Below, one piece after another: positions 18,202-33,645 of a stretch of DNA of 64,000 nt. The first letter of the stretch is position 1; every line of letters starts with the position of its first letter. The translations under genes were made by a program, and so were the position numbers. A model generated the notes under the pieces. That model saw only the letters and a list, made by a program, of their open reading frames with translations, was not told where the DNA came from and did no database searches. Origin of the DNA: Jiangella gansuensis DSM 44835 (GTDB lineage: Bacteria > Actinomycetota > Actinomycetes > Jiangellales > Jiangellaceae); NCBI RefSeq assembly GCF_000515395.1, contig NZ_KI911782.1, positions 1,279,090 to 1,343,089 on the forward strand. The letters are read 5' to 3'.

Positions 18202-19014
18202 GTGCACGCCGTGACGGACCCACTGCTGGAGGTACGGGACCTGCGGGTGACGTTCGGCGGCAGCCGCCGGCGGGCCGGCTTCGTCGCCGTCGACGGGGTG
18301 AGTCTCACAGTCGGCGCGGAGGAGACGCTCGGGCTGGTCGGCGAGTCCGGGTCCGGCAAGACGACGGTGGCGCGGTGCGTCGCCGGGCTCATCCGGCCCG
18401 ACGTCGGCACCGTGACGTTCGAGGGCCAGCGGCTCGAGCGGGTCGGGCGCCGCCCGGCCGAGTTGCAGCGCGCGGTGCAGATGGTGTTCCAGGACCCGCG
18501 CTCGTCGCTGAACCCGCGGATGAGCGTCGCGTCGGTCATCGGCGAGGCGTGGCGCACCCACCCGGCGGCCGCACCGTCCGGCGACCGGACCGCGGCGCTG
18601 CACGCACTGCTGGCCGACGTCGGGCTGGACGCGGAGGTCGCGGACCGACGTGCCGGTGACCTGTCCGGTGGGCAGTGCCAGCGGGTCAGCATCGCCCGGG
18701 CGCTGGCGGTCCGTCCGCGCCTGTTGGTGTGCGACGAGGCCGTGTCCGCGCTGGACGTGTCGGTGCAGGCGCAGATCCTGCGGCTGCTGGCCGACCTGCG
18801 CCGAACCCACCACCTGGCGATGCTGTTCATCACGCACGACCTCGGCGTGGTGCACCAGATCGCCGACCGGGTCGCGGTGATGCGCCGTGGCCAGCTGGTC
18901 GAGGAGGGCCCGGCCGGCGACGTGCTCGGCGCTCCGCGACACGAGTACACGAAGGCGCTGCTCGACGCGGCGCTCGATCTCGACGACGCCGACGGTGAGC
19001 AGGTGCCCGCATGA
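18202..19014 (+). CDS. ABC importer ATPase (OppF/DppF-like)
   Basis: A 270-residue ATPase, shorter than usual OppF proteins because the C-terminal zinc-motif tail is missing (it ends DADGEQVPA). Walker [11 protein letters not shown]-loop VFQDPRSSLNPRM, signature LSGGQCQR and Walker B LLVCDEAVSALD are intact. The start is uncertain: GTG 18196, 18202 and 18211 are in frame, and 18202 has GAGGGGGAG at the best spacing. It overlaps the glycosidase gene by 4 bp (ATGA). It works with the preceding ATPase to power the importer. Confidence 0.9.
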   Translation: MHAVTDPLLEVRDLRVTFGGSRRRAGFVAVDGVSLTVGAEETLGLVGESGSGKTTVARCVAGLIRPDVGTVTFEGQRLERVGRRPAELQRAVQMVFQDPRSSLNPRMSVASVIGEAWRTHPAAAPSGDRTAALHALLADVGLDAEVADRRAGDLSGGQCQRVSIARALAVRPRLLVCDEAVSALDVSVQAQILRLLADLRRTHHLAMLFITHDLGVVHQIADRVAVMRRGQLVEEGPAGDVLGAPRHEYTKALLDAALDLDDADGEQVPA

Positions 19015-21041
19015 CGACCCCAGGACCGAGCGTGCCCGCCGCCACCGGCTGGAACACCTGGGACGTGCGCACCCACACCGGTATGGCGCACCTGCCCTCC
19101 GGGCTGCGGGTGCGCTTCGGCCTGCTCGGTGCGGACGGCGGCCCGGTGCTGGACGGCTTCACCTGGCGCCACGGCCTGGTGCGGCTCGGCCACCACACCG
19201 TCGACGGTTCCTTCGCGGAGGTGAGCGTCGAGGTCGACGGCGTCGAGCTGCGGCTGGCCATGGCCGGCGGGCCGGGCGACGAACTGTACGTGCGCGCTGA
19301 GTCGGCCGGGACCGTCGTCGCCGACGTCGCCACCGGGTGGGACGCCGACGCGCAACCGTGGCCGGACGCGACACCGGGGGACTGGCGGCTGGACCGTTCC
19401 GGCGACGACTTCCTGGTCGCCCCGGCCGGGTCGAGCGCCACGGCGGCCGACGCCGCCGTCGTCGTCGAGACCCGGCGGGCCGCGGCCGAGGCGGCACGGC
19501 CACGTTCCGGCGGCTGGTTCCGCGACGCCGCGGACGCGCTCACCCGCGCCGTCACGTGGAACACGATCCACGCGCCGGACCTCGGCCGCGTCCTGACGCC
19601 GACCTCCCGCGACTTCGTCTCCGTGGAGCGCCAGGGGTTCTACGGCAGCTGGGCGCTGCATGCCTGGGACACGTTCTTCACCGGGCTGGTCGCCGGGGTC
19701 ATCGACCGCGACTACGCCCGCGGCATCCTCGGTCAGATCCTGCCGTTCGCCGACGCCGCCGGCATGATCCCGAACCGGGTCAGCGACGAACGCGGCCGCA
19801 CCGACGACAGGTCGCAACCTCCCGTCGGTGCGCTCACCGTCCTGAACGCCTACCTGGCCGGCGGTCTCACCGACGCCACCCGCGACCGGCGGCTGTTGGA
19901 GGAGACCTATCCGGCGCTGCTGGCCTGGCACGACTGGTGGCCGGCGCACCGCACCGGGCCGCACGGCCTGCTCGCCTGGGGTTCCGACCCCGTCGAGGGT
20001 GACCCGGAGTCCGCGACGCTGGACCGCACCAAGCGGGAGTCCGGCCTGGACGACTCGCCGATGTACGACGAGGCCAGCTACGACCCCGCGACGCACACCA
20101 TGGACGTCGCCGACGCCGGCCTGAACGCCCTGCACGTCGCCGACGCCGAGGCGCTGGCCGCCATCGCGTCGCGGGTGGGCGACGACGCGACGGCGACCCG
20201 GCTGGCCACCGAGGCCGGCGCCGCCCGGGAGGCCGCGGCGAAGCAGTTCTGGTCCGCCGACCACGGCGGCTACCGGAACCTGCGTGCCGACGGCTCCCAC
20301 GACCCGCACGTCTCGCCGACGCTGCTGTACCCGCTGGTGGCCGGGTTCCCAGACGCCGCGACGGCACAGGCCGTGGCCGACGCCATGCTGCGCCCGGACG
20401 TCCTCGGCGGCGAGCGCCCAATGCCCAGCGTCGCCCGCGACGACCCCGGCTTCGCCGCCACCTACTGGCGTGGCCGGATCTGGGCGCCGATGGCCTACCT
20501 CGCGGTCCAGGGGCTGCGCCGCTACGGTCTGACCGAGCACAGCCGCGCCGTCAGCGCGGCGCTGCTGGAGCTGTTCCTGGCCGAGTGGGAGACGCACAGC
20601 CATGTGCGCGAGAACTACCCGGCGCACGCCGGTGAGAACCTGACCGGGTTCCAGCAACGCTCCGACGGGCTCATGGCGTGGGGCGGGCTGCTGGCCCACC
20701 TGGCTTTCGGCGAGCTGGCCGAGGCCCGGCCGGACGGCTGGCGCTTCGCCCATCCCGGCCGCCCGGCCGAGCTGGCGAACCTGCCGCTCGGCGAGGGCCG
20801 GCTCAGCGTGACCGCCGCCGGCCGGCTGGTGGTCTCGCTGGACGGCAGGGTCCTGCTCGACGCGGCGCCCGGGGTCGTCGTCAGCGGCTACGAGCGGACC
20901 GGCGACGTGGTCCGGATGGCCGTCAGCGGCGTCGGCGACATCCTCATCACCTCGCCCGGCGCCGACCGGGCACCTGTCACCGTCACCGTCGACGGCGGAA
21001 CCCGGCGTGTGCAGACAGACAGAGAGGGAACCATCGCGTGA
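19011..21041 (+). CDS. (alpha/alpha)6-barrel glycoside hydrolase (GH63/MGH1-like)
   Basis: A 676-residue protein with an N-terminal beta domain (1-165), a catalytic (alpha/alpha)6 toroid (about 170-560) and a small C-terminal beta domain. GSWALHAWDTFF, LLAWGSDP and ATYWRGRIWAPMAYLAVQG are typical of GH63/glucosylglycerate-hydrolase-like enzymes; the acidic residues in AWDTFF and in the region around ESGLDDSPMYDE are the likely catalytic ones. There is no signal peptide, so it acts in the cytoplasm on an oligosaccharide brought in by the importer. Overlaps both neighbours by 4 bp. Confidence 0.8.
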   Translation: MTTPGPSVPAATGWNTWDVRTHTGMAHLPSGLRVRFGLLGADGGPVLDGFTWRHGLVRLGHHTVDGSFAEVSVEVDGVELRLAMAGGPGDELYVRAESAGTVVADVATGWDADAQPWPDATPGDWRLDRSGDDFLVAPAGSSATAADAAVVVETRRAAAEAARPRSGGWFRDAADALTRAVTWNTIHAPDLGRVLTPTSRDFVSVERQGFYGSWALHAWDTFFTGLVAGVIDRDYARGILGQILPFADAAGMIPNRVSDERGRTDDRSQPPVGALTVLNAYLAGGLTDATRDRRLLEETYPALLAWHDWWPAHRTGPHGLLAWGSDPVEGDPESATLDRTKRESGLDDSPMYDEASYDPATHTMDVADAGLNALHVADAEALAAIASRVGDDATATRLATEAGAAREAAAKQFWSADHGGYRNLRADGSHDPHVSPTLLYPLVAGFPDAATAQAVADAMLRPDVLGGERPMPSVARDDPGFAATYWRGRIWAPMAYLAVQGLRRYGLTEHSRAVSAALLELFLAEWETHSHVRENYPAHAGENLTGFQQRSDGLMAWGGLLAHLAFGELAEARPDGWRFAHPGRPAELANLPLGEGRLSVTAAGRLVVSLDGRVLLDAAPGVVVSGYERTGDVVRMAVSGVGDILITSPGADRAPVTVTVDGGTRRVQTDREGTIA

Positions 21042-22651
21042 GCAGTGAGACGGCAGTATCGACCGACATCCTCGTGGTCGGCGGCGGACTCGGCGGTGTT
21101 GCCGCGGCCCTGGCGGCACTGCGGCGAGGCAGGTCGGTCCTGCTCACCGAGGAGACCGACTGGATCGGCGGGCAGCTGACCAGTCAGGGTGTCCCACCGG
21201 ACGAGCACGCCTGGATCGAGCAGTTCGGCAGCACTCGCACCTACCGTGAACTGCGCGAGAACATCCGCGCCTACTACCGCACCTGGTACCCGCTGACCGA
21301 GGAGGCCCGCACCGCCCGCGACCTCAACCCCGGCCAGGGCCGGGTCAGCCGGCTGTGCCACGAGCCGCGCGTCGGCGCCGCCGTGCTGGAGGCGATGGTG
21401 GCGCCCTGGGTGGCGGCCGGCCGCCTCTCCATCCTGTACCGGCACCGCCCGGTGGCCGCCGCCGTCGACGGCGACCGGGTGAGCGGCGTCGTGGTCGAGG
21501 GTCCCGACGGGCATCGCCTCGAGGTCAGCGCTCGGTACGTGCTCGACGCGACAGAGCTCGGGGACCTGCTCCCGCTGACCGATGCCGAGCACGTCACCGG
21601 CTTCGAGTCGCGGCACGACACCGGCGAACCGAGCGCGCCGGACGTCGCGCAGCCGGACAACATGCAGGCGTTCTCCTGGGTGTTCGCCGTCGACCACCGC
21701 GACGGTGAGGACCACACCATCGACCGGCCGGCCGGGTACGCCGCCTGGCGGGCCTACCAGCCGCCGAAGTGGCCGAACCCGCTGATCAGCCTGCGTGCAC
21801 CGGACCCGCGCACGCTGGAGCCGTTCGAACGGGCCTTCATCCCCAACGGCGACTCCGGCCCCGTCGTCGCCGACCAGAGCAAGGACCCCGGCGACCGCGA
21901 GCTGTGGGCGTTCCGGCGCATCGTGGCCCGGTCGGTGTTCCGGCCCGGCTTCGCGGCCAGCGACGTCACCGTCGTCAACTGGCCGATGATCGACTACCTG
22001 CCGGGGCCGCTCATCGGGGTCAGCGACGCCGAACGCGACAAGCATCTGGCCGGCGCCCGGGAACTGAGCATGTCGATGCTGTACTGGCTGCAGACCGAGG
22101 CCCCGCGGCCCGACGGCGGCACCGGCTGGCCCGGGCTGCGCCTGCGCGGCGACGTCATGGGCACCACCGACGGCCTGGCGATGGCGCCGTACATCCGTGA
22201 GTCGCGGCGCATCGTCGCGCGCCGGCGTGTGGTCGAGCAGGACCTGTCGCTGGCTGTGCGGGGAGCCGACGGGGCCGTCCAGTACCCCGACAGCGTCGGC
22301 GTCGGCATGTACCGCATCGACCTGCACCCGTCCACCGGCGGCGACACTTACATCGACGTGGCCAGCAGCCCGTTCCAGATCCCGCTCGGCGCGCTGGTGC
22401 CGGTTCGACTGCGCAACCTGCTGCCGGCGGCGAAGAACATCGGCACCACCCACATCACCAACGGCTGCTACCGCCTGCACCCGGTCGAATGGAACATCGG
22501 CGAGGTGGCCGGCGCCCTCGCCGCGCACTGCCTGGACGGTGGGCTGGAGCCGCAGCAGGTGCACGGCGACGCCGCCCGGCTGACCGCCTTCCAGGACGAG
22601 CTGGCCGCCGACGGCGTCGAGCTGGCCTGGCCCGAGATCAAGGGGTACTGA
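21038..22651 (+). CDS. FAD-dependent oxidoreductase (FAD_oxidored, PF12831-like)
   Basis: A 537-residue cytoplasmic flavoprotein. The N-terminal Rossmann motif is DILVVGGGLGGVAAALAALRRG, followed by TDWIGGQLTSQGVPPDE, which is characteristic of the FAD_oxidored group; the C-terminal part carries the second FAD motif GALVPVRLRNLLPAAKNIG and TNGCYRLHPVEWNIGE. These enzymes recur in bacterial glycan-utilisation clusters and probably oxidise a sugar or sugar acid, but few have been characterised. GTG 21038 overlaps the glycosidase stop and has AGAGAGGGA upstream; the long open frame further upstream is a shadow. Confidence 0.85.
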   Translation: MSSETAVSTDILVVGGGLGGVAAALAALRRGRSVLLTEETDWIGGQLTSQGVPPDEHAWIEQFGSTRTYRELRENIRAYYRTWYPLTEEARTARDLNPGQGRVSRLCHEPRVGAAVLEAMVAPWVAAGRLSILYRHRPVAAAVDGDRVSGVVVEGPDGHRLEVSARYVLDATELGDLLPLTDAEHVTGFESRHDTGEPSAPDVAQPDNMQAFSWVFAVDHRDGEDHTIDRPAGYAAWRAYQPPKWPNPLISLRAPDPRTLEPFERAFIPNGDSGPVVADQSKDPGDRELWAFRRIVARSVFRPGFAASDVTVVNWPMIDYLPGPLIGVSDAERDKHLAGARELSMSMLYWLQTEAPRPDGGTGWPGLRLRGDVMGTTDGLAMAPYIRESRRIVARRRVVEQDLSLAVRGADGAVQYPDSVGVGMYRIDLHPSTGGDTYIDVASSPFQIPLGALVPVRLRNLLPAAKNIGTTHITNGCYRLHPVEWNIGEVAGALAAHCLDGGLEPQQVHGDAARLTAFQDELAADGVELAWPEIKGY

Positions 22652-22655
22652 TCGT

Positions 22656-23576
22656 ATGGGTGTCGATGGTCGGGCGTTGCTGAGCGGCGTGATGGCGCCG
22701 CTGGTGACGCCGATGGAACGGCCGGGCGTCCCGTCCGCCGCGGCGGCGCCGCCGTTGTTGGAGTCGCTGGCCGCGGCGGGGGTGCGCAGCCTGATGCTGT
22801 TCGGCAGCAACGGCGAGGGTCCGCTGCTGCCGACGTCGGCGCTGGGAGTGTTCTGCGCCGAGGTGGCAGCCCGCTGGCGGTCGCTGACCGGGGACGGCCC
22901 CGTACTGGTCAACGTCACCGCGGCCGGTACCGCCGAGGCGCTGGAGCGGGTGTCAGCCGTCGCCGATGCCGGGCCGGACGCCGTCGTCGTCAGCCCACCC
23001 ATCTACTACCGGCACCGCACCGACGAACTCGTCGCCCACTACGCGGCGTTCGCGGCGCAGCCGGTGCCGGTCGTGGCCTACAACGTGCCCCGTTACAGCA
23101 ACCCGTTCACCCCGGAGCTCATCGACGAGGTGCTGGCGATGCCGCACGTCGTCGGCGTCAAGGACAGCTCCGGCGACCTCGCGCTGTTCGGGCTGCTCGT
23201 CGCGGCCGCGCGCCGCCGCCGGGACGTCGGTGTCAGCCAGGGTAGTGAGACCCAGCTGGTGGCCGGCCTGGAAGGCGGCGCCGACGGCATCGTGCCCGGA
23301 GTGGCGAACCTCGCCCCCCGGTTGTGCACCGAACTGTACGCCGCCTACCGCGACGGACGGGTCGTCGCCGCCGACACCGCCCAGGAGACCGTGGACACAC
23401 TGCTCGCGCTGCACACCGTGCGGCCCGGGGTCCCGGCCGTGAAAGCAGTGCTGGACGCGCGCGGGCTGTGCCCACCGCACGTCGCCGCGCCGCTCGCCCC
23501 GTGCTCGGCGGCGGAACGTGCCGCTCTGCTCGACCTGCTCGCCCCGCTGGAGGAACACCTGATCGCTCGCCCCTGA
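22656..23576 (+). CDS. Dihydrodipicolinate synthase/N-acetylneuraminate lyase family aldolase
   Basis: A 306-residue class I TIM-barrel aldolase. The Schiff-base lysine is Lys169 (GVKDSSGD) and the catalytic tyrosine Tyr142 (VVAYNVPRYS); the substrate-carboxylate loop reads GSNGEGP (50-56), where DapA usually has GTTGE. A catabolic retro-aldol role, splitting a 2-keto-3-deoxy sugar acid or a sialic-acid-like compound to pyruvate, fits its place in the operon better than lysine synthesis. It starts four bases after the FAD gene and is the last gene before a 202-bp gap holding palindrome copy 3. Confidence 0.85.
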   Translation: MGVDGRALLSGVMAPLVTPMERPGVPSAAAAPPLLESLAAAGVRSLMLFGSNGEGPLLPTSALGVFCAEVAARWRSLTGDGPVLVNVTAAGTAEALERVSAVADAGPDAVVVSPPIYYRHRTDELVAHYAAFAAQPVPVVAYNVPRYSNPFTPELIDEVLAMPHVVGVKDSSGDLALFGLLVAAARRRRDVGVSQGSETQLVAGLEGGADGIVPGVANLAPRLCTELYAAYRDGRVVAADTAQETVDTLLALHTVRPGVPAVKAVLDARGLCPPHVAAPLAPCSAAERAALLDLLAPLEEHLIARP

Positions 23577-23636
23577 TCGTCCTGGAATCCGTCGCCTGCC
23601 GTTCCACTGTCCGGCTCTGCTCCACCGCCCAGCCCC

Positions 23637-23708
23637 GTTGATCTTGGAGTAAGCGCGGAATCACCGGGGGAAATGTCCCATTGATTCCGCGGAAACTCCA
23701 AGATCAAC
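23637..23708. repeat. 72-bp palindromic element, copy 3
   Basis: Same outer arms GTTGATCTTGGAG / CTCCAAGATCAAC and same total length as copies 1 and 2, but with more changes inside (AAGCGCGGAATCACCGGGGG). It lies between the aldolase stop and the sialidase-like gene, so it may end the operon or reduce read-through into the sialidase gene. The rest of 23577-23778 shows only the ribosome binding site before 23779. Confidence 0.85.
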
Positions 23709-23778
23709 GGGGCTGGGGCGGACGAAGCCGTCAGGCGGCGGGTCGCGGGGAATCTGCCCGATCTCGAAGGAGAGAACC

Positions 23779-25446
23779 GTGGACCACACTCCGATCAGCC
23801 GCCGCACCCTCGTCCTGGGAACCGCCGCGACCGCGGCCGGTACCGCCACCATCAGCGCCCTCGCGTCCGCGCCCGCCGCCGCCTCGACCCGGTCCGCGGC
23901 CGCGGATGCCGGCGAGTTCCACGAGTCGCTGGTCTTCCAGGCCGGTGACGACGACCTCGAGGTGTTCCACGTCTTCGGCCTGACGACGACGGTGGCCGGC
24001 TCGGTGCTGGCGTTCGCTGAGGCCAGGATCACCGCGCACGACGCGGACCCGCACCACCTGGCCGTGCGCCGCAGCCGCGACGGCGGCCGGACCTGGGAAC
24101 CGCTGCGGTACGCGCGCCGGTCCGACGGCGTCCAGTCGTTCGTCAACCCGACACCGGTGGTCGACCGCGCCTCCGGCCGGATCCACCTGTTCCACTCCGA
24201 GTGCTTCCGCGACCCCGGCAACACCGGCGGGTCGCCGGACAGGTCCCGGTTCTACGTCGTGACCAGCGACGACGACGGCGAGACGTGGTCGGACCCGGTG
24301 GAACTCACGCACCTGTTCGACGGCGACCCGCACGAGCAGACGCTGCACATGCCGGGCCCCGGCCACGGCATCCAGCTCGCCGACGGCCGACTGGTGCTGC
24401 AGGTCTGGCACCGGCGGGCCATCGCCTTCCCGGTGGCGCAGCGGCGCTACGGCGTGACCGTGATCATCAGCGACGACGGCGGCGCGACCTGGCAGGCCGG
24501 TGGCGGGGTGCCGCTGGACGGCGCGTACCCGCTGAACGAGGCCAGGCTGATCGAGCGGCCGGACGGCTCCCTTGTGGTGCTGGGCCGGTACGCCTCCGGC
24601 GGCACCCATCCGCGCATCGTGTCGGTCAGTACCGACCGCGGGATGACCTGGTCGCCGCCGGTGCTGGACGCGTCGGCCCGCCCGGTGAACGCCATCGACA
24701 CCGGGCTGGTCCGGCTGCCCGGGCAGGGCTCCGACGACACCAGCCGGATCGTGTTCTCCCGGGTCGACTCGCCGACACGCCGCAACATGACCGTGTCGAT
24801 CTCGTACGACGAAGGCATGACCTGGCCGTACAGCCGGGTGCTCACCGAGGGCCCGGCGTCGTACTCCGACACGGTCGCGCTTCCGGACGGGAAGGTCGGC
24901 GTCCTGTACGGCCGCGAGCACGCGCCCGGCGTCACCACGAGCTTCTCCCGCGACGTCGTCTTCGCGGTGTTCGACCTGGCCTGGCTGACCTCGGGGGTGG
25001 ACACCGGCCGGCGCGGTCCGCAGACCCGGTTCGGCTTCGAGGTCGAGGACCTGCCGTTCACCGCCACCAGCGGAGTTGGAGTGTCGACGGTGTCCGACCC
25101 GGCCGCGAGCGGCGGGCGGCGGGTCGAGGTGGCCGCCACCGACTACGGCCATTACCTGGAGGCGACCATCGAGGTCACCCGGGCCGAGACCTTCGACGTG
25201 TTCGCGCGGTTCCGGCACCTGCCGAACGGCGGCGTCGTGACGGTGGACGTGGACGGCGAGCGGCTGGGCGGGCCGATGGACACGTCCACGGTGTCGGTGC
25301 GGGCGTTCCGCACGGAACCGCTGGGCCGGCTGCGGCTGGGCCGGGGCGCGCACACCGTCCGGTTCACCGTGGTCGACAAGCACACCGACTCCAGCGGCGT
25401 CCGGTTCAGCCCCGACCTCATCTCCCTTGCCGCCATCCCGAAATGA
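23779..25446 (+). CDS. Exported sialidase-fold enzyme (Tat substrate)
   Basis: A 555-residue protein beginning with a twin-arginine signal (SRRTLVLGTAATAAG) and an Ala-rich cleavage region, so it is exported folded. The body is a six-bladed propeller with Asp-boxes SRDGGRTW, SDDDGETW, SDDGGATW, STDRGMTW and SYDEGMTW, as in exo-alpha-sialidases; residues after about 415 form an extra beta-sandwich, probably carbohydrate-binding. The N-terminal Arg of the sialidase triad may be in LAVRRSRDGG. Starts at GTG 23779 with GAAGGAGAG upstream. It would release the sugar taken up by the operon to its left; sialic acid is possible but unproven. Confidence 0.78.
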   Translation: MDHTPISRRTLVLGTAATAAGTATISALASAPAAASTRSAAADAGEFHESLVFQAGDDDLEVFHVFGLTTTVAGSVLAFAEARITAHDADPHHLAVRRSRDGGRTWEPLRYARRSDGVQSFVNPTPVVDRASGRIHLFHSECFRDPGNTGGSPDRSRFYVVTSDDDGETWSDPVELTHLFDGDPHEQTLHMPGPGHGIQLADGRLVLQVWHRRAIAFPVAQRRYGVTVIISDDGGATWQAGGGVPLDGAYPLNEARLIERPDGSLVVLGRYASGGTHPRIVSVSTDRGMTWSPPVLDASARPVNAIDTGLVRLPGQGSDDTSRIVFSRVDSPTRRNMTVSISYDEGMTWPYSRVLTEGPASYSDTVALPDGKVGVLYGREHAPGVTTSFSRDVVFAVFDLAWLTSGVDTGRRGPQTRFGFEVEDLPFTATSGVGVSTVSDPAASGGRRVEVAATDYGHYLEATIEVTRAETFDVFARFRHLPNGGVVTVDVDGERLGGPMDTSTVSVRAFRTEPLGRLRLGRGAHTVRFTVVDKHTDSSGVRFSPDLISLAAIPK

Positions 25447-25453
25447 TCACGTC

Positions 25454-25515
25454 CACCATGTGTCCTCCCGCTCCACCAGGAATGCTTGACCGGTGAAGCG
25501 GGAGGACACATGGTG
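25454..25515. repeat. Second palindrome family, copy A
   Basis: Left arm CACCATGTGTCCTCCCGCT pairs perfectly with AGCGGGAGGACACATGGTG, with a further CACC/GGTG after one mismatch, around the loop AGGAATGCTTGACC. It begins seven bases after the sialidase stop and ends 20 bases before the methyltransferase start. The reverse complement of 63924-63993 is clearly related, sharing CCCGCTCCACCAGGAATGCT in one run. TGATCACGT immediately precedes it. Confidence 0.85.
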
Positions 25516-25534
25516 CCGTCCGTAGAGTGGGCGT

Positions 25535-26122
25535 GTGGCAGCGAAACCGACACGCTGGGTGACCGACACGAAGCCCGGCCACTCCCAGTGGTACATCGAC
25601 CGCTTCCGCACCATGGCCGCCGAGGGCGCCGACCTCGGCGGCGAGGCGCGGCTCGTCGACGCGATGGTGGCGCCCGCCTCCCGGGTGCTCGACGCGGGCT
25701 GCGGCACCGGTAGGACATCGGCGGTACTGCACGAGCGCGGGCACACCGTCGTCGGCGTCGATGCGGACCCGGAGCTGATCGCGGCGGCCGCACACGACCA
25801 CCCAGGCCCGCGGTTCGTCGTCGCCGACCTGGCCGAGCTGGACCTGGGCGAACAGTTCGACGCCGCCCTACTGGCCGGCAACGTCATGGTCTTCCTGGCG
25901 CCCGGGACCGAGACCGAGGTGCTGCGCCGGGTGTCCGGTCACGTGCGACCGGACGGCCCGATCCTCGTCGGCTTCCACGTGAACCGGCACCTGTCGCTGG
26001 CCGACTTCGACCGGTACGTCGACGACGCCGGCCTGCGGGTGGAGCACCGGTTCGCGACCTGGGACCTGCGCGCCTGGCACGACGACGCCGACTTCGCCGT
26101 CACCGTCCTGCGACACCGCTGA
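25535..26122 (+). CDS. SAM-dependent methyltransferase (class I)
   Basis: A 195-residue Rossmann-fold methyltransferase: motif I VLDAGCGTGRTS (residues 50-61), an acidic residue ending strand 2 (VVGVDADPE) and VVADLAELDL as motif II region. The acceptor-binding part is short, so it is a small stand-alone enzyme of unknown substrate. GTG 25535 follows a TAGAGT hexamer by six bases, suggesting a leaderless transcript. It is convergent with the kinase-isomerase gene, with only three bases between stop codons. Confidence 0.8.
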   Translation: MAAKPTRWVTDTKPGHSQWYIDRFRTMAAEGADLGGEARLVDAMVAPASRVLDAGCGTGRTSAVLHERGHTVVGVDADPELIAAAAHDHPGPRFVVADLAELDLGEQFDAALLAGNVMVFLAPGTETEVLRRVSGHVRPDGPILVGFHVNRHLSLADFDRYVDDAGLRVEHRFATWDLRAWHDDADFAVTVLRHR

Positions 26123-26125
26123 CCG

Positions 26126-28336
26126 TCATACCGGCGGGCGGCACAACAGCACCTCCAGGCCGGCCGCCCGCTCCAGGGAGCACGCCCCGGCGGCGTACGG
26201 CAGCAGCACCGACTGCCCGGGGGTGACCGGCAGCCGCGCTCCGCTGCCGGTCACCAGCTCCGCGCTCCCGGCGACGACGACGAGGACGGCGAAGCCCGCC
26301 GCCCAGGACACCTCGCCGCGCCGACGTTCGACCCGGAAGAACTCCGAAGCGGCCGGGATCAGGTCACCGACGGTGGAGTCGCGCGCCGTCCGCAGCGCCT
26401 CGACCTCCGCGCGGCTGCGGCCGGCGCGTTCGACCGCGCCCAGCGCAGCCGGGTAGCCGATGCCCAGGTGACCGTCACGGGGCCCGTCGATGGCGAAGCC
26501 GTCCCACTCCAGCAGCACCGACAGGTCGGTCGGCTCCTGCAGCTCCACCAGGAACGCGCCGGCGCCGATCGCGTGCGGCAGGCCGGCCGGCACGAACACC
26601 GCGTCACCGCGCTCCAGCCGCAGCGTGTGCATCGCGGCCAGCATCGCGTCGACGTCCTGGCGCTCCACCCATCCGGCCAGCTCGGCGGCGTCGACGTCGC
26701 GGTTCCAGCCCAGCCGCACCTCGGCGGGCTCGAGCATCACCCACGCCTCCGTCTTCCCGTGGCCGAGCCCCAGGTGCTCGTGCGCGAACGGGACGTCCGG
26801 GTGCACGTGCACGGGCAACCGTTCGCCGGCGTCGAGCAACTTGACCAGCAGCGCGGTGTCCGCGCCGCGGGTCGTGACGTGCCGTGGACCCAGCCACCAC
26901 CGCGGATCGCGGCGGACCGCCTCGGCCAGCAGGTCTCCGTCCGGCAGCCGGGTCAGACCGACGTCGCCCTGGCCGAAGACCGCGGTGGTGGACGCGACCC
27001 AGTCCTCCGGCTCCCGGCCGGCACCGGGCGCACTGCCGCGGAACCGCGCGATGCGCTCGCCGCCACGGTAGAACCGGTCGGCCGGCTGGTTGGCGGGCAG
27101 CACGACGGGTTCGGCCCGCGGCACCGCCGGGCCGGCGTGCGGCGCCGCGTCGGGTGTCGTCAGCGCCGCGAGGAAGCCGCCCACGAACGTGTCGCCCAAG
27201 CCGATGTTCGTTGGGTGCGCGGTGTCCAGGACGTACGCCGGTACGCCGCGGGCGGACGCACCGAACGCCGCGTGCACGGCCTCGACGACGGCGGCGCCGC
27301 CCGGGTGCGGCGGCCGGTGCGCGACAGCCCGGTAGTCGGCCGCGGTCAGGTCGTCGCCGGCTAGGTAGCGCGCGCTGGCCAGCGCGATGCCGCCGCGTAG
27401 CGCGTCCTCGAACCGTCCGGCGTCCGGCCCCAGTGCGATGGACCAGTACTTGGTGTGCACGACGACCACCGGCGCCGGCACGGCGGCGCTCAGCTCCTTC
27501 GCCGCCCGGACCACCTGGGCCGGGTCCAGCAGGTCGACGGTCCGGCCGATCCGCTCCTGCAGCTCGTCCTCGTTCATCGAGTACACGTCGACCAGGCCGA
27601 GGACGCCGTCGCGCGCGGCGGCGGCGATCTCCGGGACGTGGTACCCGGCGTCCTCGTAGAACGTCAGCGCCCCTGCCGGTAGCCGGCCGGCGAATCCGCG
27701 CAGCTCCCGTAGCCGTTCGGTCAGGACCGCCGGGTCCTGGATCGAGTTGAGCCCCGAGATCAGGAACGCGTCGGCACGGGCCAGCGCGTCGCCCAGGCCG
27801 GAATGCAGGCGCAGGTCGCGGTTGGGCGGGTCGTGGACGTAGATCAGGCGGTTCGAGTGCGGAGCACACAGATCCAGGCCGTTCGCCCGGACGCGGGCAC
27901 CGGCCGGGAACTGCACGATCAGGTGCGGGTCGAGGGAGTCCTTCGCGGCGCTGCACAGGTAGGAGATGTCCGGCGGCAGCAGCCGGCGCACGTGGTCGTC
28001 GATGCTCACCAGGTGCACCGTGCTGCCGACGCCGATGGTGGCCATCGCCAGCGCGGCCCGCACACACGTGCCGCCCAGGGTGACCCTGGTGTCGAACCGG
28101 TCCGCGAGCGCGGTGACGATGTCGGAGGACGCGACGAAACGCTCCCCGCCGACACCGTCGCGAACGAAGGCCAGCAACGTGATCAGCAGCGACCGCTCGC
28201 TGTCGATCGGGACCGATGTCGACAACTCGCCAGCACGGATGTCGTGCTCGAGCACCAGCCGCTCGATGGTGGGGCCGTCCCAGGCGATCTCGTAGTCGAC
28301 GGTCCCGCCCAGGCCCAGCACCACCCGTTCGTTCAT
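26126..28336 (-). CDS. Fused ADP-dependent-type sugar kinase and class I phosphomannose isomerase
   Basis: A 736-residue bifunctional protein. Residues 1-400 resemble the ADP-dependent phosphofructokinase/glucokinase family: GGTCVRAALAMATIG near 88-102, the NxxE-type motif NEDE at 255-258 and the catalytic GLGD at 379-382. Residues about 430-736 are a class I mannose-6-phosphate isomerase: zinc ligands His510-x-His512 (LPVHVHPD), Glu530 (GKTEAW) and His588 (PAGLPHAIG). Both halves keep their key residues, so mannose-6-phosphate to fructose-6-phosphate to the bisphosphate in one protein is plausible. It is followed in the pathway by the adjacent class II aldolase (10 bp away) and fed by the importer in the same cluster. 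Confidence 0.78.
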   Translation of the reverse strand: MNERVVLGLGGTVDYEIAWDGPTIERLVLEHDIRAGELSTSVPIDSERSLLITLLAFVRDGVGGERFVASSDIVTALADRFDTRVTLGGTCVRAALAMATIGVGSTVHLVSIDDHVRRLLPPDISYLCSAAKDSLDPHLIVQFPAGARVRANGLDLCAPHSNRLIYVHDPPNRDLRLHSGLGDALARADAFLISGLNSIQDPAVLTERLRELRGFAGRLPAGALTFYEDAGYHVPEIAAAARDGVLGLVDVYSMNEDELQERIGRTVDLLDPAQVVRAAKELSAAVPAPVVVVHTKYWSIALGPDAGRFEDALRGGIALASARYLAGDDLTAADYRAVAHRPPHPGGAAVVEAVHAAFGASARGVPAYVLDTAHPTNIGLGDTFVGGFLAALTTPDAAPHAGPAVPRAEPVVLPANQPADRFYRGGERIARFRGSAPGAGREPEDWVASTTAVFGQGDVGLTRLPDGDLLAEAVRRDPRWWLGPRHVTTRGADTALLVKLLDAGERLPVHVHPDVPFAHEHLGLGHGKTEAWVMLEPAEVRLGWNRDVDAAELAGWVERQDVDAMLAAMHTLRLERGDAVFVPAGLPHAIGAGAFLVELQEPTDLSVLLEWDGFAIDGPRDGHLGIGYPAALGAVERAGRSRAEVEALRTARDSTVGDLIPAASEFFRVERRRGEVSWAAGFAVLVVVAGSAELVTGSGARLPVTPGQSVLLPYAAGACSLERAAGLEVLLCRPPV

Positions 28337-28346
28337 CGGCGGGATC

Positions 28347-29207
28347 CTAGTAGAGCGACGCTTTGCCGGCGGCGTCGAACAGGTCGATCTTGTGCGCCGC
28401 GACGACCTTCATGGCCTCGATACACGGCGGCTGAATCGAGTTCGGCTCCCGCAGGGAGGTATCCGCCAGGACCTCGCGCATCTTCTGGTGGTAGGCCACC
28501 TTGATGTCGGACGAGATGTTGATCTTGTTGATGCCCAGCTTCACCGACTGGCCGATCTCGTCGTCGGGGTTGCCGGAGCCGCCGTGCAGCACCAGCGGCA
28601 GGCTGACCTTCGCCGTGATCCGCTGCAACAGATCGAGCTTCAGCTCCGGCTTCATGTGCGCCGGGTAGATGCCGTGGCTGGTGCCGATGGCGATGGCCAG
28701 CGAGTCGACGCCGGTGTCCGCGACGAAGGTCACCGCGTCGTCCGGTTCGGTGTAGATGATGGAGGCCGCACCGTCCTCGGCTTCGTCGTCGGTACGGCCG
28801 ATCGTGCCGAGCTCGCCCTCGACGGAGACGCCCACAGCGTGCGCGGCTTCGACGACCTTCCTGGTGATGGCGACGTTCTCGGCGAACGGCAGCATCGAGC
28901 CGTCGATCATCACCGAGGTGAACCCGGTCTGGATGGCCAGCAGGATCTGCTCGAACGTCGCGCCGTGGTCGAAGTGGACCGCGACCGGCACCGAGGCACG
29001 GTGCGAGCGTGCGATGATCGACTCCATGATGTCGACGCCGGTGTGGCGTAGCTCGTCCGGGTGGATCGCGATGATCAGCGGAGCGTCCTTCTCCTCGCTG
29101 ATCTCGACGACGCCGTTCAACATGGCGTAGTCGCTGATGTTGAACGCCGGCACGGCGAAATTGTTCTCGTGCGCCACGGACAGCAGCTCTCGGCCGTTCA
29201 CCAGCAT
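28347..29207 (-). CDS. Class II ketose-bisphosphate aldolase (FbaA/GatY-like)
   Basis: A 286-residue zinc-dependent aldolase. Catalytic Asp80 and zinc ligands His81 (VHFDHGAT), His178 (GTSHGIYP) and His208 (LHGGSG) are present, with Glu130/132 in VEGELGT and the phosphate-binding NKINISSD. The length and loops fit the tagatose/fructose-bisphosphate aldolase group. It would cleave the product of the fused kinase-isomerase to glycolytic triose units. ATG 29207 has AAGGAGACC just upstream. Part of the six-gene minus-strand cluster governed by the DeoR-type regulator. Confidence 0.9.
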   Translation of the reverse strand: MLVNGRELLSVAHENNFAVPAFNISDYAMLNGVVEISEEKDAPLIIAIHPDELRHTGVDIMESIIARSHRASVPVAVHFDHGATFEQILLAIQTGFTSVMIDGSMLPFAENVAITRKVVEAAHAVGVSVEGELGTIGRTDDEAEDGAASIIYTEPDDAVTFVADTGVDSLAIAIGTSHGIYPAHMKPELKLDLLQRITAKVSLPLVLHGGSGNPDDEIGQSVKLGINKINISSDIKVAYHQKMREVLADTSLREPNSIQPPCIEAMKVVAAHKIDLFDAAGKASLY

Positions 29208-29258: not shown

Positions 29259-30104
29259 TCAGATCTTTACGGCACCAGCACTCATCCCTCCGATGAAGAA
29301 ACGCTGGAAGAACAGGAAGAGAATCAGGATCGGGATGCACCCCAGCACGCTCATGGCCATCATCTCGTTCCATTCGTACGAGTGCTGTCCCATGAGCAGC
29401 TGAATGCCGATGGGGACGGTGCGCATGTTCTCGGTGCGGGTCAGCGTCAGCGCGAACAGGAATTCGTTCCACGCGATCATGAAGGTGTAGAGGCCCACCG
29501 ATACCAGCCCCGGCACCGAAATGGGTACGAGAATGCGCCACAGAGCCGTGAGCGGGCCGGCGCCGTCGACCTTGACCGCCTCGTCCAGTTCCCTCGGCAG
29601 CGTGTTGAAGTACCCCGTCATCATGATGATCGCGTAGGGCAGTGTGAACACCATGTAGGTGAGGATGAGACCCGGATAGGTGTTGTACAGCCCGAGCGTG
29701 ACCATGAGGCCGAAGTACGGGATCAGCAGGGTGATCGGCGGCACCGCCTGCACGCTGATGACGACCACGTTGAGCACCCGCTTGAGCGGGAAGTCGTACC
29801 GGCTGAACGCGTACGCGGCGAAGATCGCCACCACAAGCGTCAACGCTGCCACCGACAGGCCGATGACGTAACTGTTCAGGAAGAACCGCAGCTTGGTCGG
29901 ATCGGTCAGGATGGTCGTGTAGGCGTCCAGCGAGAAGTTGTCGGTGAGCAGGCGCGGCGGGTACTCGAAGATCTCGCTGTTGGACTTGAACGAGCTCAGT
30001 GCCATCCAGAGGACCGGCAGGCCGGCGAACATCGCGCCGACGACGAGAGCGGCGATGACCCCGGTCCGCTTCAGGCCGCGGTGGCGCACATTGGGCAGGT
30101 CCAT
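29259..30104 (-). CDS. Sugar ABC importer permease (MalG-like)
   Basis: A 281-residue inner-membrane permease of the carbohydrate-uptake type 1 family with six helices and the EAA coupling loop ELDEAVKVDGAGPLTALWRI. It pairs with the MalF-like gene ending one base upstream. No ATPase gene is in the cluster, so the importer presumably borrows a shared MsmK/MalK-type ATPase encoded elsewhere, which is common in actinobacteria. Confidence 0.92.
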   Translation of the reverse strand: MDLPNVRHRGLKRTGVIAALVVGAMFAGLPVLWMALSSFKSNSEIFEYPPRLLTDNFSLDAYTTILTDPTKLRFFLNSYVIGLSVAALTLVVAIFAAYAFSRYDFPLKRVLNVVVISVQAVPPITLLIPYFGLMVTLGLYNTYPGLILTYMVFTLPYAIIMMTGYFNTLPRELDEAVKVDGAGPLTALWRILVPISVPGLVSVGLYTFMIAWNEFLFALTLTRTENMRTVPIGIQLLMGQHSYEWNEMMAMSVLGCIPILILFLFFQRFFIGGMSAGAVKI

Positions 30105-30105
30105 G

Positions 30106-31056
30106 TCAATCCCGCGCTCTCTGATGCCGGACGTAGAAGAAGGCCAGGATCATCGACAGGACGAGGATCACGACGGCGCTGGTGGACGCCATCGAGAACT
30201 CGTACCGGCTGAAAGCCAACTTGTACGTGAACGTGCTGAGCATTTCCGTGACGTTGATCGGCCCGCCGCCGGTGGTCATCCAGATGAGTGCGAACTGTTG
30301 CGTCGTCCAGATGAAGTCCAGCAGGGCCATGCTGATGATGATGGGTTTCAGTTGGGGGATCGTGACGTTCCAGAACTGCTTGACCGCGTTCGCGCCGTCG
30401 ACCCTGGCCGCCTCGTAGAGATCCTTCGGGATGCCCTGCAATCCGGCCAGGATGCTGATCATGAAGAACGGATAGCCGCACCAGATGTTGATGAACGTGA
30501 CCGCGTGCAGCGCCGTGTCCGGGTTGGCCAGCCACTCGACGTTGGAATCGATGAAGCCGGTGACGTCGAGCAGATAGTTGAGGACGCCGTTCGGGTTCAT
30601 GATCAGCCGCCACAGCACGGCCACGACGGCGATGGTGAACAGCCAGGGCAGCACGTAGACCGCGCGGAACAGCGCCCTGGTGCGCCGTCCCACGAACGCG
30701 CTGTTCAGCAACAGTGCGAAGGCCAACCCCAGGATCAGGTGCGCCAGCACGCTCACGCAGGTGAAGTACAGGGTGTTGCGCACCGCGGTGTGGAACACCG
30801 GGTCGGTGATGACGTCGACGTAGTTCGACAGCCCGACCGACTGCGGGTTCTGGTTCGTTATGACGTTGTCCATCAGCGAGTAGCCGATGACCATCACGAT
30901 CGGCACGACCATGAGCACGACCAGCAACACGGCGGTCGGCAACAGGTACAGGTAGGGCGTCAGCAGGCGCCGGAACCGGCCGCGGCGGGCGGCGGGACGG
31001 CGAGTTTCGGCCGGCCCGTCGTCAGTGGGTGGTCTTCGCGTCGTCAGCTGGGACAA
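30106..31056 (-). CDS. Sugar ABC importer permease (MalF-like)
   Basis: A 316-residue permease: Arg-rich cytoplasmic N-terminus, first helix at LYLLPTAVLLVVLMVVPIV, and the EAA loop DLYEAARVDGANAVKQFWNVTIP. The start is TTG at 31056 preceded by AGGAGAC; no closer ATG or GTG gives a sensible N-terminus. It forms the channel with the MalG-like protein. A perfect 13-bp hairpin lies between it and the binding-protein gene upstream. Confidence 0.9.
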   Translation of the reverse strand: MSQLTTRRPPTDDGPAETRRPAARRGRFRRLLTPYLYLLPTAVLLVVLMVVPIVMVIGYSLMDNVITNQNPQSVGLSNYVDVITDPVFHTAVRNTLYFTCVSVLAHLILGLAFALLLNSAFVGRRTRALFRAVYVLPWLFTIAVVAVLWRLIMNPNGVLNYLLDVTGFIDSNVEWLANPDTALHAVTFINIWCGYPFFMISILAGLQGIPKDLYEAARVDGANAVKQFWNVTIPQLKPIIISMALLDFIWTTQQFALIWMTTGGGPINVTEMLSTFTYKLAFSRYEFSMASTSAVVILVLSMILAFFYVRHQRARD

Positions 31057-31138: not shown

Positions 31139-32419
31139 TCAGAACTCTTCGAGCCAGCGGTCCTGGGCAGTTTGCAGCGCGTCGTCGACGGACTGGTCGC
31201 CGTCGAGTGCACGCTGGAACTCCTCGCCGAACATGCGCATCAGTTCCTCGGCAACCGGCAGCCCGGTGAACTCGTTGGCCGGGTAGCCGCTCTGGTAGAT
31301 CTCGAAGGCGGCGGAGAACAGTTCGTCGCCCTCCACGAAGTCCGGCACCGACGACGTGTTGCCCGGGAACGCGTTGGCGAGTGTCGAGAGCTCGGCGTTG
31401 ACGTCCTCCCCGAAGAGGAACTCGACCAGCTTCCAGGCCTCGGCCTTGTGCTCGCTGTTCTCGGCCACGCCGATGCCCCAGGACGCGTAGGGGATGCCGC
31501 GCGCGTCGGTGTAGGAGTCCTCGGCGGGGATGGCGGAGATGCTGAAGTTCAGGTCCGGGTTTGCCTCACGGATCGTGTTCACGTGCGCGAGCGAGCTGAT
31601 CGCCATGCCGACCCGGCCGTTCGTGAACTCCTCGACCTTGTCCTGTTCCTTCATCGTGAAAGCGCCCGGCGCGATGGCGCCGTCGTCCCACAGGCTCTTG
31701 ACGTACTCCGCGGCGCTCGTGACCTCGTCATTGGTGAGGTCGGGCTGGCCGTCGGCGAGCATGCTGCCACCGGAGGCCCACACCCAGGACATGACGTCGT
31801 TCTGGATGCCGTTCGGTGTCTCCAGCGACAGCGGGAGCGCCCAGCCGCTCACGTTGTCACCCAGGCCGCTCAGCGCGGTCGCGGCCGCGGCGAACTCGGT
31901 GCGGTTGGTGGGCGGTGCGGTGATGCCGGCCTGGGCGAGCAGGTCGTCGTTGGTGAAGAGCGGGTAGACGAAGTTGACGACCGGGAGCATGTAGGTGGAG
32001 CCCTCGAGCTCGACCTGCGAGGCCAGGACGCTGTCGTCGAAGCCGGCCTCGTCCATCAGGTCGCTCAGGCTCGCGATGGACCCCTGGTTGACGAAGTCGC
32101 TGACCCAGGCTCCGTCGAGGCCGACGACGTCGGACATGGTGCCGGCGGCGGCGCCGGCCACGACCTGCTCCTTCGTCGACGCGTACGGGCCGCTGATCAG
32201 TTCGACGGTGATGCCGGGATTCTGCTCCTCGAACTCGTCCATGAGGGCGCGCAGCGAGCCTTCGGGCAGCTCGGGCTCCCACCACTGGCTGAACTCGAGG
32301 GTCACCTCACCGCTCGCCGCATCGTCCCCGGAGCCGCCGCCACACGCCGCGGTCAGCGCGAGGGCCGATGCACCGAGGACGGCGAGTGCCCGCCGTCTCG
32401 CGATGGCGCCGTTGCTCAT
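31139..32419 (-). CDS. Sugar ABC importer solute-binding lipoprotein
   Basis: A 426-residue extracellular solute-binding protein (SBP_bac_1 type). The signal ends in the lipobox ALTAAC after an Arg-rich start (ARRRALAVLGASALAL). Family features include LEFSQWWEPEL near the N-terminus, NPGITVELISGPYAS, and the AAAGTMSDVVGLDG hinge region. It is the first gene of the cluster and has a strong ribosome binding site, AAGGAGAG, seven bases before ATG 32419. The phased repeats at 32446-32485 lie directly upstream. Confidence 0.92.
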   Translation of the reverse strand: MSNGAIARRRALAVLGASALALTAACGGGSGDDAASGEVTLEFSQWWEPELPEGSLRALMDEFEEQNPGITVELISGPYASTKEQVVAGAAAGTMSDVVGLDGAWVSDFVNQGSIASLSDLMDEAGFDDSVLASQVELEGSTYMLPVVNFVYPLFTNDDLLAQAGITAPPTNRTEFAAAATALSGLGDNVSGWALPLSLETPNGIQNDVMSWVWASGGSMLADGQPDLTNDEVTSAAEYVKSLWDDGAIAPGAFTMKEQDKVEEFTNGRVGMAISSLAHVNTIREANPDLNFSISAIPAEDSYTDARGIPYASWGIGVAENSEHKAEAWKLVEFLFGEDVNAELSTLANAFPGNTSSVPDFVEGDELFSAAFEIYQSGYPANEFTGLPVAEELMRMFGEEFQRALDGDQSVDDALQTAQDRWLEEF

Positions 32420-32805: not shown

Positions 32806-33645
32806 ATGGCCGCGCAGACAACCGCAGGGAATGACGCGAACGGTCAGCCCCGCCGACTACCCGCCGGGCGCAAGGCCGCGCTGGCGGCGTACGTGACCGA
32901 GCTCGGGCAGGTCACCGTCGCCCAGCTCGCCGAGCGCTTCGACGTCTCGCCGGACACCATCCGGCGCGACCTCGACCAGCTCGACTCCGAAGGTGTGCTC
33001 ATCCGCACCCACGGCGGCGCCGTCAGCCCTTCCGCCGTCCCCCGGCCCGAGACCGGGCTTGACATCCGCCTACGGATGCAGACCTCGGCCAAGGAGAAGA
33101 TCGGCGCCCTGGCTGCCAGCCTGGTCACCGACGGCGCCGCCATCGTGGTCAACGGCGGTACCACCACGCTCGCGCTGGTCCGGCACCTGCGCGAACATCG
33201 CGAACTCACCGTCGCCACCAACAGCCTGCGCATCCCGGCCGAGATCTCCCCCGACGCCTACCGGGACCTCTACGTGTTCGGGGGACAGGTGCGCCACGTA
33301 TCGCAGGCCACCGTCGGGCCGGTCAGCTTCCAGCGCATGTCCGCCCGCGACGACGTCCAGATCCAGTGCGACCTCGCGCTGATCGCCGTCGGCGCTGTGG
33401 ACGGCGAGAGCGGCTACACCACCAGCAACTTCTCCGAGGCCGCCATGATGGCGGAGATGATGGACCGCGCCTCCCGGGTGGCGGTCCTGGCCGACCGTTC
33501 CAAGTTCGACCGGCGGCTGTTCGCCCAGGTCGCCGAGCTGGGCCGGGCCGATTACCTCGTCACCGACTCCGCGCCGTCACAGGATCTGTCCCGGGCGCTG
33601 GAAGCGGCCGGCGTGAAGGTACTGATCGCCGACGGCGACGGCTGA
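32806..33645 (+). CDS. DeoR-family transcriptional regulator
   Basis: A 279-residue regulator with the N-terminal DeoR helix-turn-helix (VTVAQLAERFDVSPDTIRRD, about residues 36-55), the VLIRTHGGAV wing and a C-terminal sugar-phosphate-sensing domain (VNGGTTTLALVRHL, VATNSLRIPAEI). DeoR proteins respond to phosphorylated sugars, matching the kinase-isomerase product made by the divergent cluster. It is therefore the likely repressor of that cluster. No good ribosome binding site precedes ATG 32806. Confidence 0.9.
   Translation: MAAQTTAGNDANGQPRRLPAGRKAALAAYVTELGQVTVAQLAERFDVSPDTIRRDLDQLDSEGVLIRTHGGAVSPSAVPRPETGLDIRLRMQTSAKEKIGALAASLVTDGAAIVVNGGTTTLALVRHLREHRELTVATNSLRIPAEISPDAYRDLYVFGGQVRHVSQATVGPVSFQRMSARDDVQIQCDLALIAVGAVDGESGYTTSNFSEAAMMAEMMDRASRVAVLADRSKFDRRLFAQVAELGRADYLVTDSAPSQDLSRALEAAGVKVLIADGDG

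Follow-up and report, generated by a model that had tools for sequence, protein, structure and literature searches.

A rare fusion of an ADP-dependent-kinase homologue and a phosphomannose isomerase-like domain in Jiangella joins neighbours of a conserved actinobacterial sugar transport operon

The genome of Jiangella gansuensis consists of one contig of 5.586 Mb, and we analyzed a stretch of 64,000 nucleotides of it (the window). On the minus strand of the window, an open reading frame of 736 codons without interruption encodes an ADP-dependent-kinase homologue fused to a phosphomannose isomerase (PMI)-like domain. It belongs to an operon read in the order solute-binding protein (SBP), permease, permease, aldolase, and kinase-PMI, with spacings of 82, 1, 51, and 10 bp, and a gene for a DeoR-family regulator is divergent from it. 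The features, with the basis of each assignment, are as follows.

26126..28336, minus strand: fused kinase and PMI-like protein, 736 aa (open reading frame; full-length homologue in Jiangella aurantiaca, 79%)
27161..28336, minus strand: kinase part, aa 1-392, PF04587, ending just past the GLGD motif (D382) (Pfam, PDB profile, AlphaFold [AF2] model)
27110..27160, minus strand: linker, about aa 393-409 (alignment with J. aurantiaca and unfused homologues)
26129..27109, minus strand: PMI-like part, aa ~410-736, with cupin metal site H510, H512, E530, H588 (TIGR00218 below cut-off, 1qwr profile, AF2 model, residue counts)
28347..29207, minus strand: class II aldolase, PF01116 (E 7.1e-92), PRK08185-like (400.3 bits, cut-off 405) (profiles; site comparison with GatY and YdjI)
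29259..30104, minus strand: second sugar ABC transporter permease (PF00528)
30106..31056, minus strand: first sugar ABC transporter permease (PF00528)
31139..32419, minus strand: SBP, the N terminus of which resembles a lipobox on visual inspection (PF01547; the named PDB relatives are mostly sugar binders)
32806..33645, plus strand: divergent DeoR-family regulator (PF00455 and PF08220)

Pfam, profile searches, and AF2 folds agree that domains of the ADP-dependent-kinase and PMI families share the one chain. An initial annotation made from the letters had read the locus in this way, with a class II aldolase next to the fusion, and the domain search bears out the family that it gave the N-terminal half: PF04587 (ADP_PFK_GK) covers residues 4 to 260 (E 4.7e-20, 72.1 bits against a Pfam cut-off of 27). 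All 30 aligned kinase members match PF04587 at an E value of 0.001 or less, and a profile search of the kinase part against the ADP kinases of the PDB gave an E value of 4.5e-15. The AF2 model of residues 1 to 399 (pLDDT 91.5) is closest to the ADP-dependent glucokinase 5o0j (Z 35.8, rmsd 3.4, 388 residues aligned); the first 17 rows of the structure comparison with VIA-align are all ADP-dependent kinases (Z 28.5 to 35.8), and the next row scores 24.0. For the C-terminal half, a profile search found the Bacillus subtilis PMI 1qwr with an E value of 2.9e-24, while the single-sequence match was weak. MPI_cupin_dom scored 27.6 against a cut-off of 27 when this part was scanned alone and 24.5, below the cut-off, in the whole chain. 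TIGR00218 (manA) remained under its equivalog cut-off of 116.2 bits, with 35.6 bits (E 5.6e-9) for the whole chain and 39.9 for the half alone. The model of residues 400 to 736 (pLDDT 91.6; the two halves were modelled separately, not as one fused chain) matches the PMI 1zx5 best (Z 33.2, rmsd 2.3, 292 aligned), the first 16 structure matches being PMIs (Z 29.2 to 33.2) and the next row scoring 15.5. By alignment, 17 residues link the halves in the window protein and 12 in that of J. aurantiaca. The base composition by codon position is gene-like and in phase across the junction, which, together with the full-length J. aurantiaca fusion, makes a frameshift or an assembly artefact unlikely. The 736-codon frame is a real kinase-PMI fusion.

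We scanned 84,980 species genomes and found 178 stretches with a relative of the kinase part, a lower bound because the scan starts from exact peptide patterns. Eighty of the 178 were compared as named loci; 80 loci are not 80 genomes, since one Arthrobacter strain contributes three contigs. Gene order was counted from tblastn matches, as gene calling with an ORF script was crude and missed some genes. The aldolase gene lies directly upstream of the kinase gene in all 80 loci, which are actinobacterial, each permease is present in 76, the SBP in 74, and the divergent DeoR gene in 72. Eight loci are short of some gene. Six of these (L081, L090, L104, L109, L117, and L121) start near a contig end, the available sequence beginning no more than about 4.3 kb from the kinase; true exceptions to the operon gene set are L064, where the DeoR gene points the other way, and L110. 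Beyond the operon genes, each neighbour family is confined to at most 16 of the 80 loci. A PMI gene is separate and on the same strand in 42 loci, fused in one (L062, J. aurantiaca), and absent from the kinase strand in 37, three of which end near the kinase and two of which (L064 and L108) have a PMI gene on the other strand. Where the ORF script called kinase-PMI pairs, 18 of 31 overlap by 4 bp. The isomerase, missing from many operons and from some Jiangella relatives, is an optional module of the operon.

The same pair of domains was found elsewhere as the full-length fusion of J. aurantiaca. The kinase part is present in 6 of 22 genomes sampled from the family and fused in two of these six, namely, the window and J. 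aurantiaca. No match spanning both domains was seen in 398 genomes of one related family and 186 of another, where scoring covered the top two, or at most five, candidates of each genome. The 52 records from a plasmid search all covered less than 80% of the query, and among the matches listed it was the PMI half that matched. PF04587 itself was detected in 9 of 393 genomes sampled from the class, six of the nine from the family of the window, and among 14 control genomes only in two archaea. The fusion is a rare join of operon neighbours, and the operon is the larger finding. Among the matches listed in the open-access full-text literature, outside which most subscription papers lie, there was no description of this operon, kinase branch, or fusion, in keeping with the remark in the initial annotation that the fusion is not known as a described enzyme. 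At two further places, G908:C1:3003927-3006148 and G538:C18:14537-16692, the match to the kinase contains one stop and overlaps the match to the PMI; these are perhaps separate overlapping genes and a possible prefusion step.

In the Jiangella anatolica operon, the kinase is unfused and has no PMI part. Its stop codon lies at about the start of the linker, and the gene abuts a converging methyltransferase gene, the same gene whose end adjoins the fusion in the window. A kinase tree of 32 of the 81 rows groups the unfused J. anatolica kinase with the fused one of J. aurantiaca (100/97) and leaves the window outside, which fits a fusion with later loss of the PMI part, two separate fusions, or transfer. 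Kinases without a PMI part stand beside this methyltransferase gene at L059:10001-11227 and in L045 (genome G006), possibly through clean loss of the PMI domain. In the window, the methyltransferase gene belongs to a converging cluster on the plus strand (19011-26122) that further encodes a glycoside hydrolase with an MGH1-like domain (PF22422, E 2.3e-42), an FAD oxidoreductase (PF12831), a DapA-family protein, and a BNR-repeat protein; the glycoside hydrolase might release mannose or glucose. Parts of this cluster also flank the operon of G006, J. anatolica, and J. aurantiaca, and the remaining named loci have none of it. In J. aurantiaca, a second, distant sugar ABC transporter set adjoins the operon (L062:13211-16259).

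Residues of the kinase were counted in 81 rows, the window plus the 80 loci. By profile alignment, positions 136, 138, 163, and 169 correspond to ancMT 180, 182, 207, and 213, and these were equated with K179, N181, R206, and R212 of AncMsPFK on an inferred constant offset of one. According to PMC7948494, K179 and R212 hold the substrate phosphate in ADP-dependent phosphofructokinase (PFK), and the KM of AncMsPFK for fructose 6-phosphate (F6P) is some 1000 times higher in K179A and some 200 times higher in N181A and R212A. The position of Lys179 is acidic in 80 of the 81 kinases (D 79, E 1, N 1), that of Arg212 is Asp in every one, and that of Asn181 is always His; the window protein has D136, D169, and H138 at these places. 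The same paper calls R206 essential, gives His in place of N181 in glucokinase, and describes Glu at E90 as conserved solely in glucokinases and bifunctional enzymes. Both of these glucokinase residues (Glu90 and His181 in AncMsPFK numbering) are found in 81/81 rows as E65 and H138, with E65 aligned to the Glu of the AAE segment in the mouse and Pyrococcus glucokinases. The catalytic residues R163, E228, N255, E258, G379, G381, and D382 are each kept in all 81 kinases, and the GXGD and NXXE motifs are present. The HXE motif retains its Glu in 81/81 and its His in none, and the family-wide N32 is replaced by G10 throughout (81/81; position inferred from the spacing to D14). The acceptor site looks glucokinase-like, without the phosphate ligands for F6P. 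As the HXE His is lost, we speak of an ADP-dependent-kinase homologue and not of a proven ADP-dependent kinase; with the changes at HXE and N32, the enzyme may depart from the known ADP-dependent kinases beyond its acceptor. To judge by homology, ADP would probably be the phosphoryl donor.

The PMI counts cover 64 rows, made up of the window, 44 operon-locus rows (one of the 45 PMI-bearing loci was excluded for a short match), and 19 rows from elsewhere, one of which, L165, turned out to adjoin an operon. Numbered within the half, K100, H111, H113, K129, E131, H189, E199, and D205 are kept in 64/64. The PMI fold is retained, as are in every row the metal ligands His, His, Glu, and His and both active-site lysines; the position of ManA Gln97 is His. 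The position of ManA Arg274, ten residues past E199, is Leu in all 45 operon and window rows and Leu (16), Met (2), or Phe (1) in the 19 others. This Leu stands as far from the Glu264 and Asp270 equivalents as Arg274 does in ManA, and the Arg is present in the comparison sequences E. coli ManA and 1qwr. Arg274 is an active-site residue that was chosen for mutation in Salmonella ManA (entry title 5zvr). The best structural match, Archaeoglobus fulgidus 1zx5, a "putative PMI" by its title, has no Arg here either, so the loss need not exclude activity as a mannose 6-phosphate (M6P) isomerase. The view that both catalytic sets of the fusion are intact holds only in part, since the HXE His of the kinase and the Arg274 equivalent of the PMI half are missing.

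The aldolase site was compared in 77 rows, the window plus 76 loci, four of the 80 having been dropped for short matches. The enzymes are members of PF01116 without the DPR motif of bisphosphate aldolases, which is present in GatY and in the Thermus fructose-bisphosphate aldolase (FBA). DPR of GatY is EPN in the window (EP in 77/77, N in at least 90%), and TPGT of GatY is HPDE in 77/77. E. coli YdjI is likewise without DPR and is annotated as an octuluronate-1-phosphate aldolase, whose substrate is a ketose-1-phosphate and not a bisphosphate. The DPR and HPDE segments are presumably the holders of the C6 phosphate, DPR providing its Arg. Within the same genome, another aldolase (L169) retains DPR. 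The genome of the window has a single PF04587 gene, a canonical manA (232 bits, TIGR00218), one PfkA-type PFK (PF00365 family), and three PF01116 aldolases with that of the operon included; a PF01238 search gave no match, missed the canonical manA as well, and was not used as evidence. With manA, PFK, and the other aldolases at hand, the cell would hardly need the operon for ordinary glycolysis.

With a confidence that falls just short of even, we propose that the fused protein would carry out two successive catalytic steps in a DeoR-linked operon, through which a free sugar would be imported, isomerized, phosphorylated at C1, and cleaved. We infer every reaction from gene order, domain identity, and residue conservation, which are observed. 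The ABC transporter would import a monosaccharide (or glycoside), and a mutarotase-like DUF4432 enzyme, where present, would balance its anomers. The PMI-like half would convert the free aldose to a 2-ketose (mannose to fructose, or an analogue). The kinase half would add a phosphate to C1 of this ketose, with ADP as the probable donor; the proposal is weakest in this regiochemistry and in the use of ADP. The class II aldolase would then split the ketose-1-phosphate into dihydroxyacetone phosphate (DHAP) and an aldehyde. More tentatively, the sugar may be a free aldohexose or ketohexose, with this bacterial branch of the archaeal-type ADP-dependent kinases as a ketohexokinase and a PMI-derived isomerase for unphosphorylated sugars, the two forming a bifunctional protein in two Jiangella.

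That the sugar would remain free until the kinase step is favoured by the loss of sugar-6-phosphate features in three enzymes and by a DUF4432 gene in 15 of the 80 loci, which weakly resembles 3ty1, a "hypothetical aldose 1-epimerase" (E 3.5e-6). PMI relatives beside PfkB kinases (L055, and L151 with DUF4432) were counted on the same side. Several observations count against the free-sugar pathway. The PMI gene is missing from the kinase strand in 37 of 80 loci. Transporters with this SBP type often carry oligosaccharides, and the conserved operon includes no glycoside hydrolase. The kinase half resembles glucokinases, and the ADP-glucokinases known so far act on C6 of glucose, not on C1 of a ketose. 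No gene for handling the released aldehyde was recognized in the operon, and some PMI relatives lie beside unrelated genes, a 2-hydroxyacid dehydrogenase in L057 and an MFS gene and a phosphogluconate-dehydrogenase-like gene in L157.

For PMI relatives away from the operon, 26 surrounding regions (10 + 16) were retrieved, and the neighbours scanned in 14 of them serve as leads, not statistics. A LacI-family gene lies within two genes in 8 of the 14 and a PfkB kinase gene beside the PMI relative in the two named above; at L151:4671-8828, PfkB kinase, PMI-like, DUF4432, and LacI genes form an analogous module in which PfkB replaces the PF04587 kinase. Other neighbours are a GH2 protein (L049), a rhamnosidase-like protein (L156), and a Gfo/Idh protein (L152), and the scan assigned no family in L155 and L161. 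L049:6220-14375 is from J. anatolica, where this other PMI-like gene (47%) stands beside LacI, the GH2 protein, and an SBP_bac_5-type transporter.

The main rival is a 6-phosphate route, in which the kinase half would make mannose (or glucose) 6-phosphate, the PMI half would convert it to F6P, the housekeeping PFK would form fructose 1,6-bisphosphate (F1,6BP), and the operon aldolase would split this. The glucokinase-type acceptor residues, the retained PMI fold and metal site, and the PfkA-type PFK of the genome speak for it, but the PMI half is without an Arg274 equivalent, the aldolase is without DPR, and the genome already has a canonical manA and two other PF01116 aldolases; we consider this route unlikely. 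The same chemistry on an unusual sugar, such as a uronic acid, 6-deoxy sugar, pentose, or longer ketose, as for E. coli YdjH/YdjI, would agree with the HPDE and EPN segments that set the aldolase apart from GatY, with the missing DPR as in YdjI, and with the lack of a recognized glyceraldehyde-handling gene in the operon. Nothing specific points there, however: no extra neighbour family is frequent among the loci, and the extra neighbours scanned in L095 (GMP synthase, glycosyltransferase, sigma factor, nucleotidase) are not genes for such sugars, and we rate this reading as quite unlikely. Sulfoquinovose, which follows the same logic in the sulfoglycolytic Embden-Meyerhof-Parnas (sulfo-EMP) pathway, was considered and rejected, as no sulfonate gene was recognized at the operon and the enzymes of that pathway are named otherwise in PMC12890257 and PMC8873060 (YihS/YihV/YihT or SqvD/SqiK/SqiA). 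The initial annotation had sketched a route from hexose phosphate to triose phosphates, with M6P turned to F6P by the PMI half, F6P to F1,6BP by the kinase half as an ADP-PFK, and F1,6BP cleaved by the aldolase. Domain families and gene adjacency are compatible with it, but the phosphate-binding Lys and Arg positions of PFK are acidic in 80 and 81 of the 81 kinases, and the changes at Arg274 and DPR weigh in the same direction, which makes it highly unlikely. That the PMI-like half is a sensor or passenger and not a pathway enzyme, as its absence from many operons and that of J. anatolica and its lost Arg might suggest, is scarcely credible given metal ligands and lysines kept in 64/64 rows and free-standing neighbour copies in 42/80 loci.

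Most of what is known of ADP-dependent sugar kinases concerns archaeal glycolysis and animal ADPGK. A branch that occurs in many Actinomycetota and is linked to a single conserved operon for transport and cleavage would give the family a new role and perhaps a new acceptor. Phosphofructokinase and mannose-6-phosphate isomerase are probably not the right names for these genes. That the two domains are fused in nature hints at an isomerase and a kinase acting one after the other on one sugar, and the operon supplies enzymes open to direct assay.

Each domain belongs to a known superfamily. The kinase half is alike in fold to the ADP-dependent glucokinases of Pyrococcus horikoshii and Thermococcus litoralis, the bifunctional PFK/glucokinase of Methanocaldococcus jannaschii, and mouse ADPGK (Z 28.5 to 35.8), and it shares with them NXXE, GXGD, the HXE glutamate, the R206-type Arg, and the Glu and His of glucokinases. 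It differs in that the HXE histidine is not kept, in an identity of 15 to 20% in structural alignments, in length (~392 aa against roughly 430 to 490 aa for those in the PDB), and in its place in a bacterial transport operon, fused to a PMI-like domain. With type I PMIs (ManA, TIGR00218; 1qwr and Salmonella ManA), the PMI half has in common the fold, the His/Glu/His metal ligands, and both active-site lysines, but it has His for Gln97 and Leu for Arg274, scores 35.6 against 116.2 bits, and is fused to a kinase. The operon aldolase shares PF01116 and the DH and LHG(G/A)S segments with GatY, FBA, and YdjI, at 38% identity to GatY and 37% to YdjI; it has KINISSDIK where GatY has KINVATELK, together with HPDE and EPN, and is without DPR, as is YdjI. 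E. coli ydjHI, in which YdjH is a PfkB-type kinase, and sulfo-EMP have no PMI-like fusion, and no sulfonate or uronate gene was recognized at the Jiangella operon. The overall logic proposed here is nevertheless a known one, as in both systems a free ketose is converted to a ketose-1-phosphate and then to DHAP and an aldehyde.
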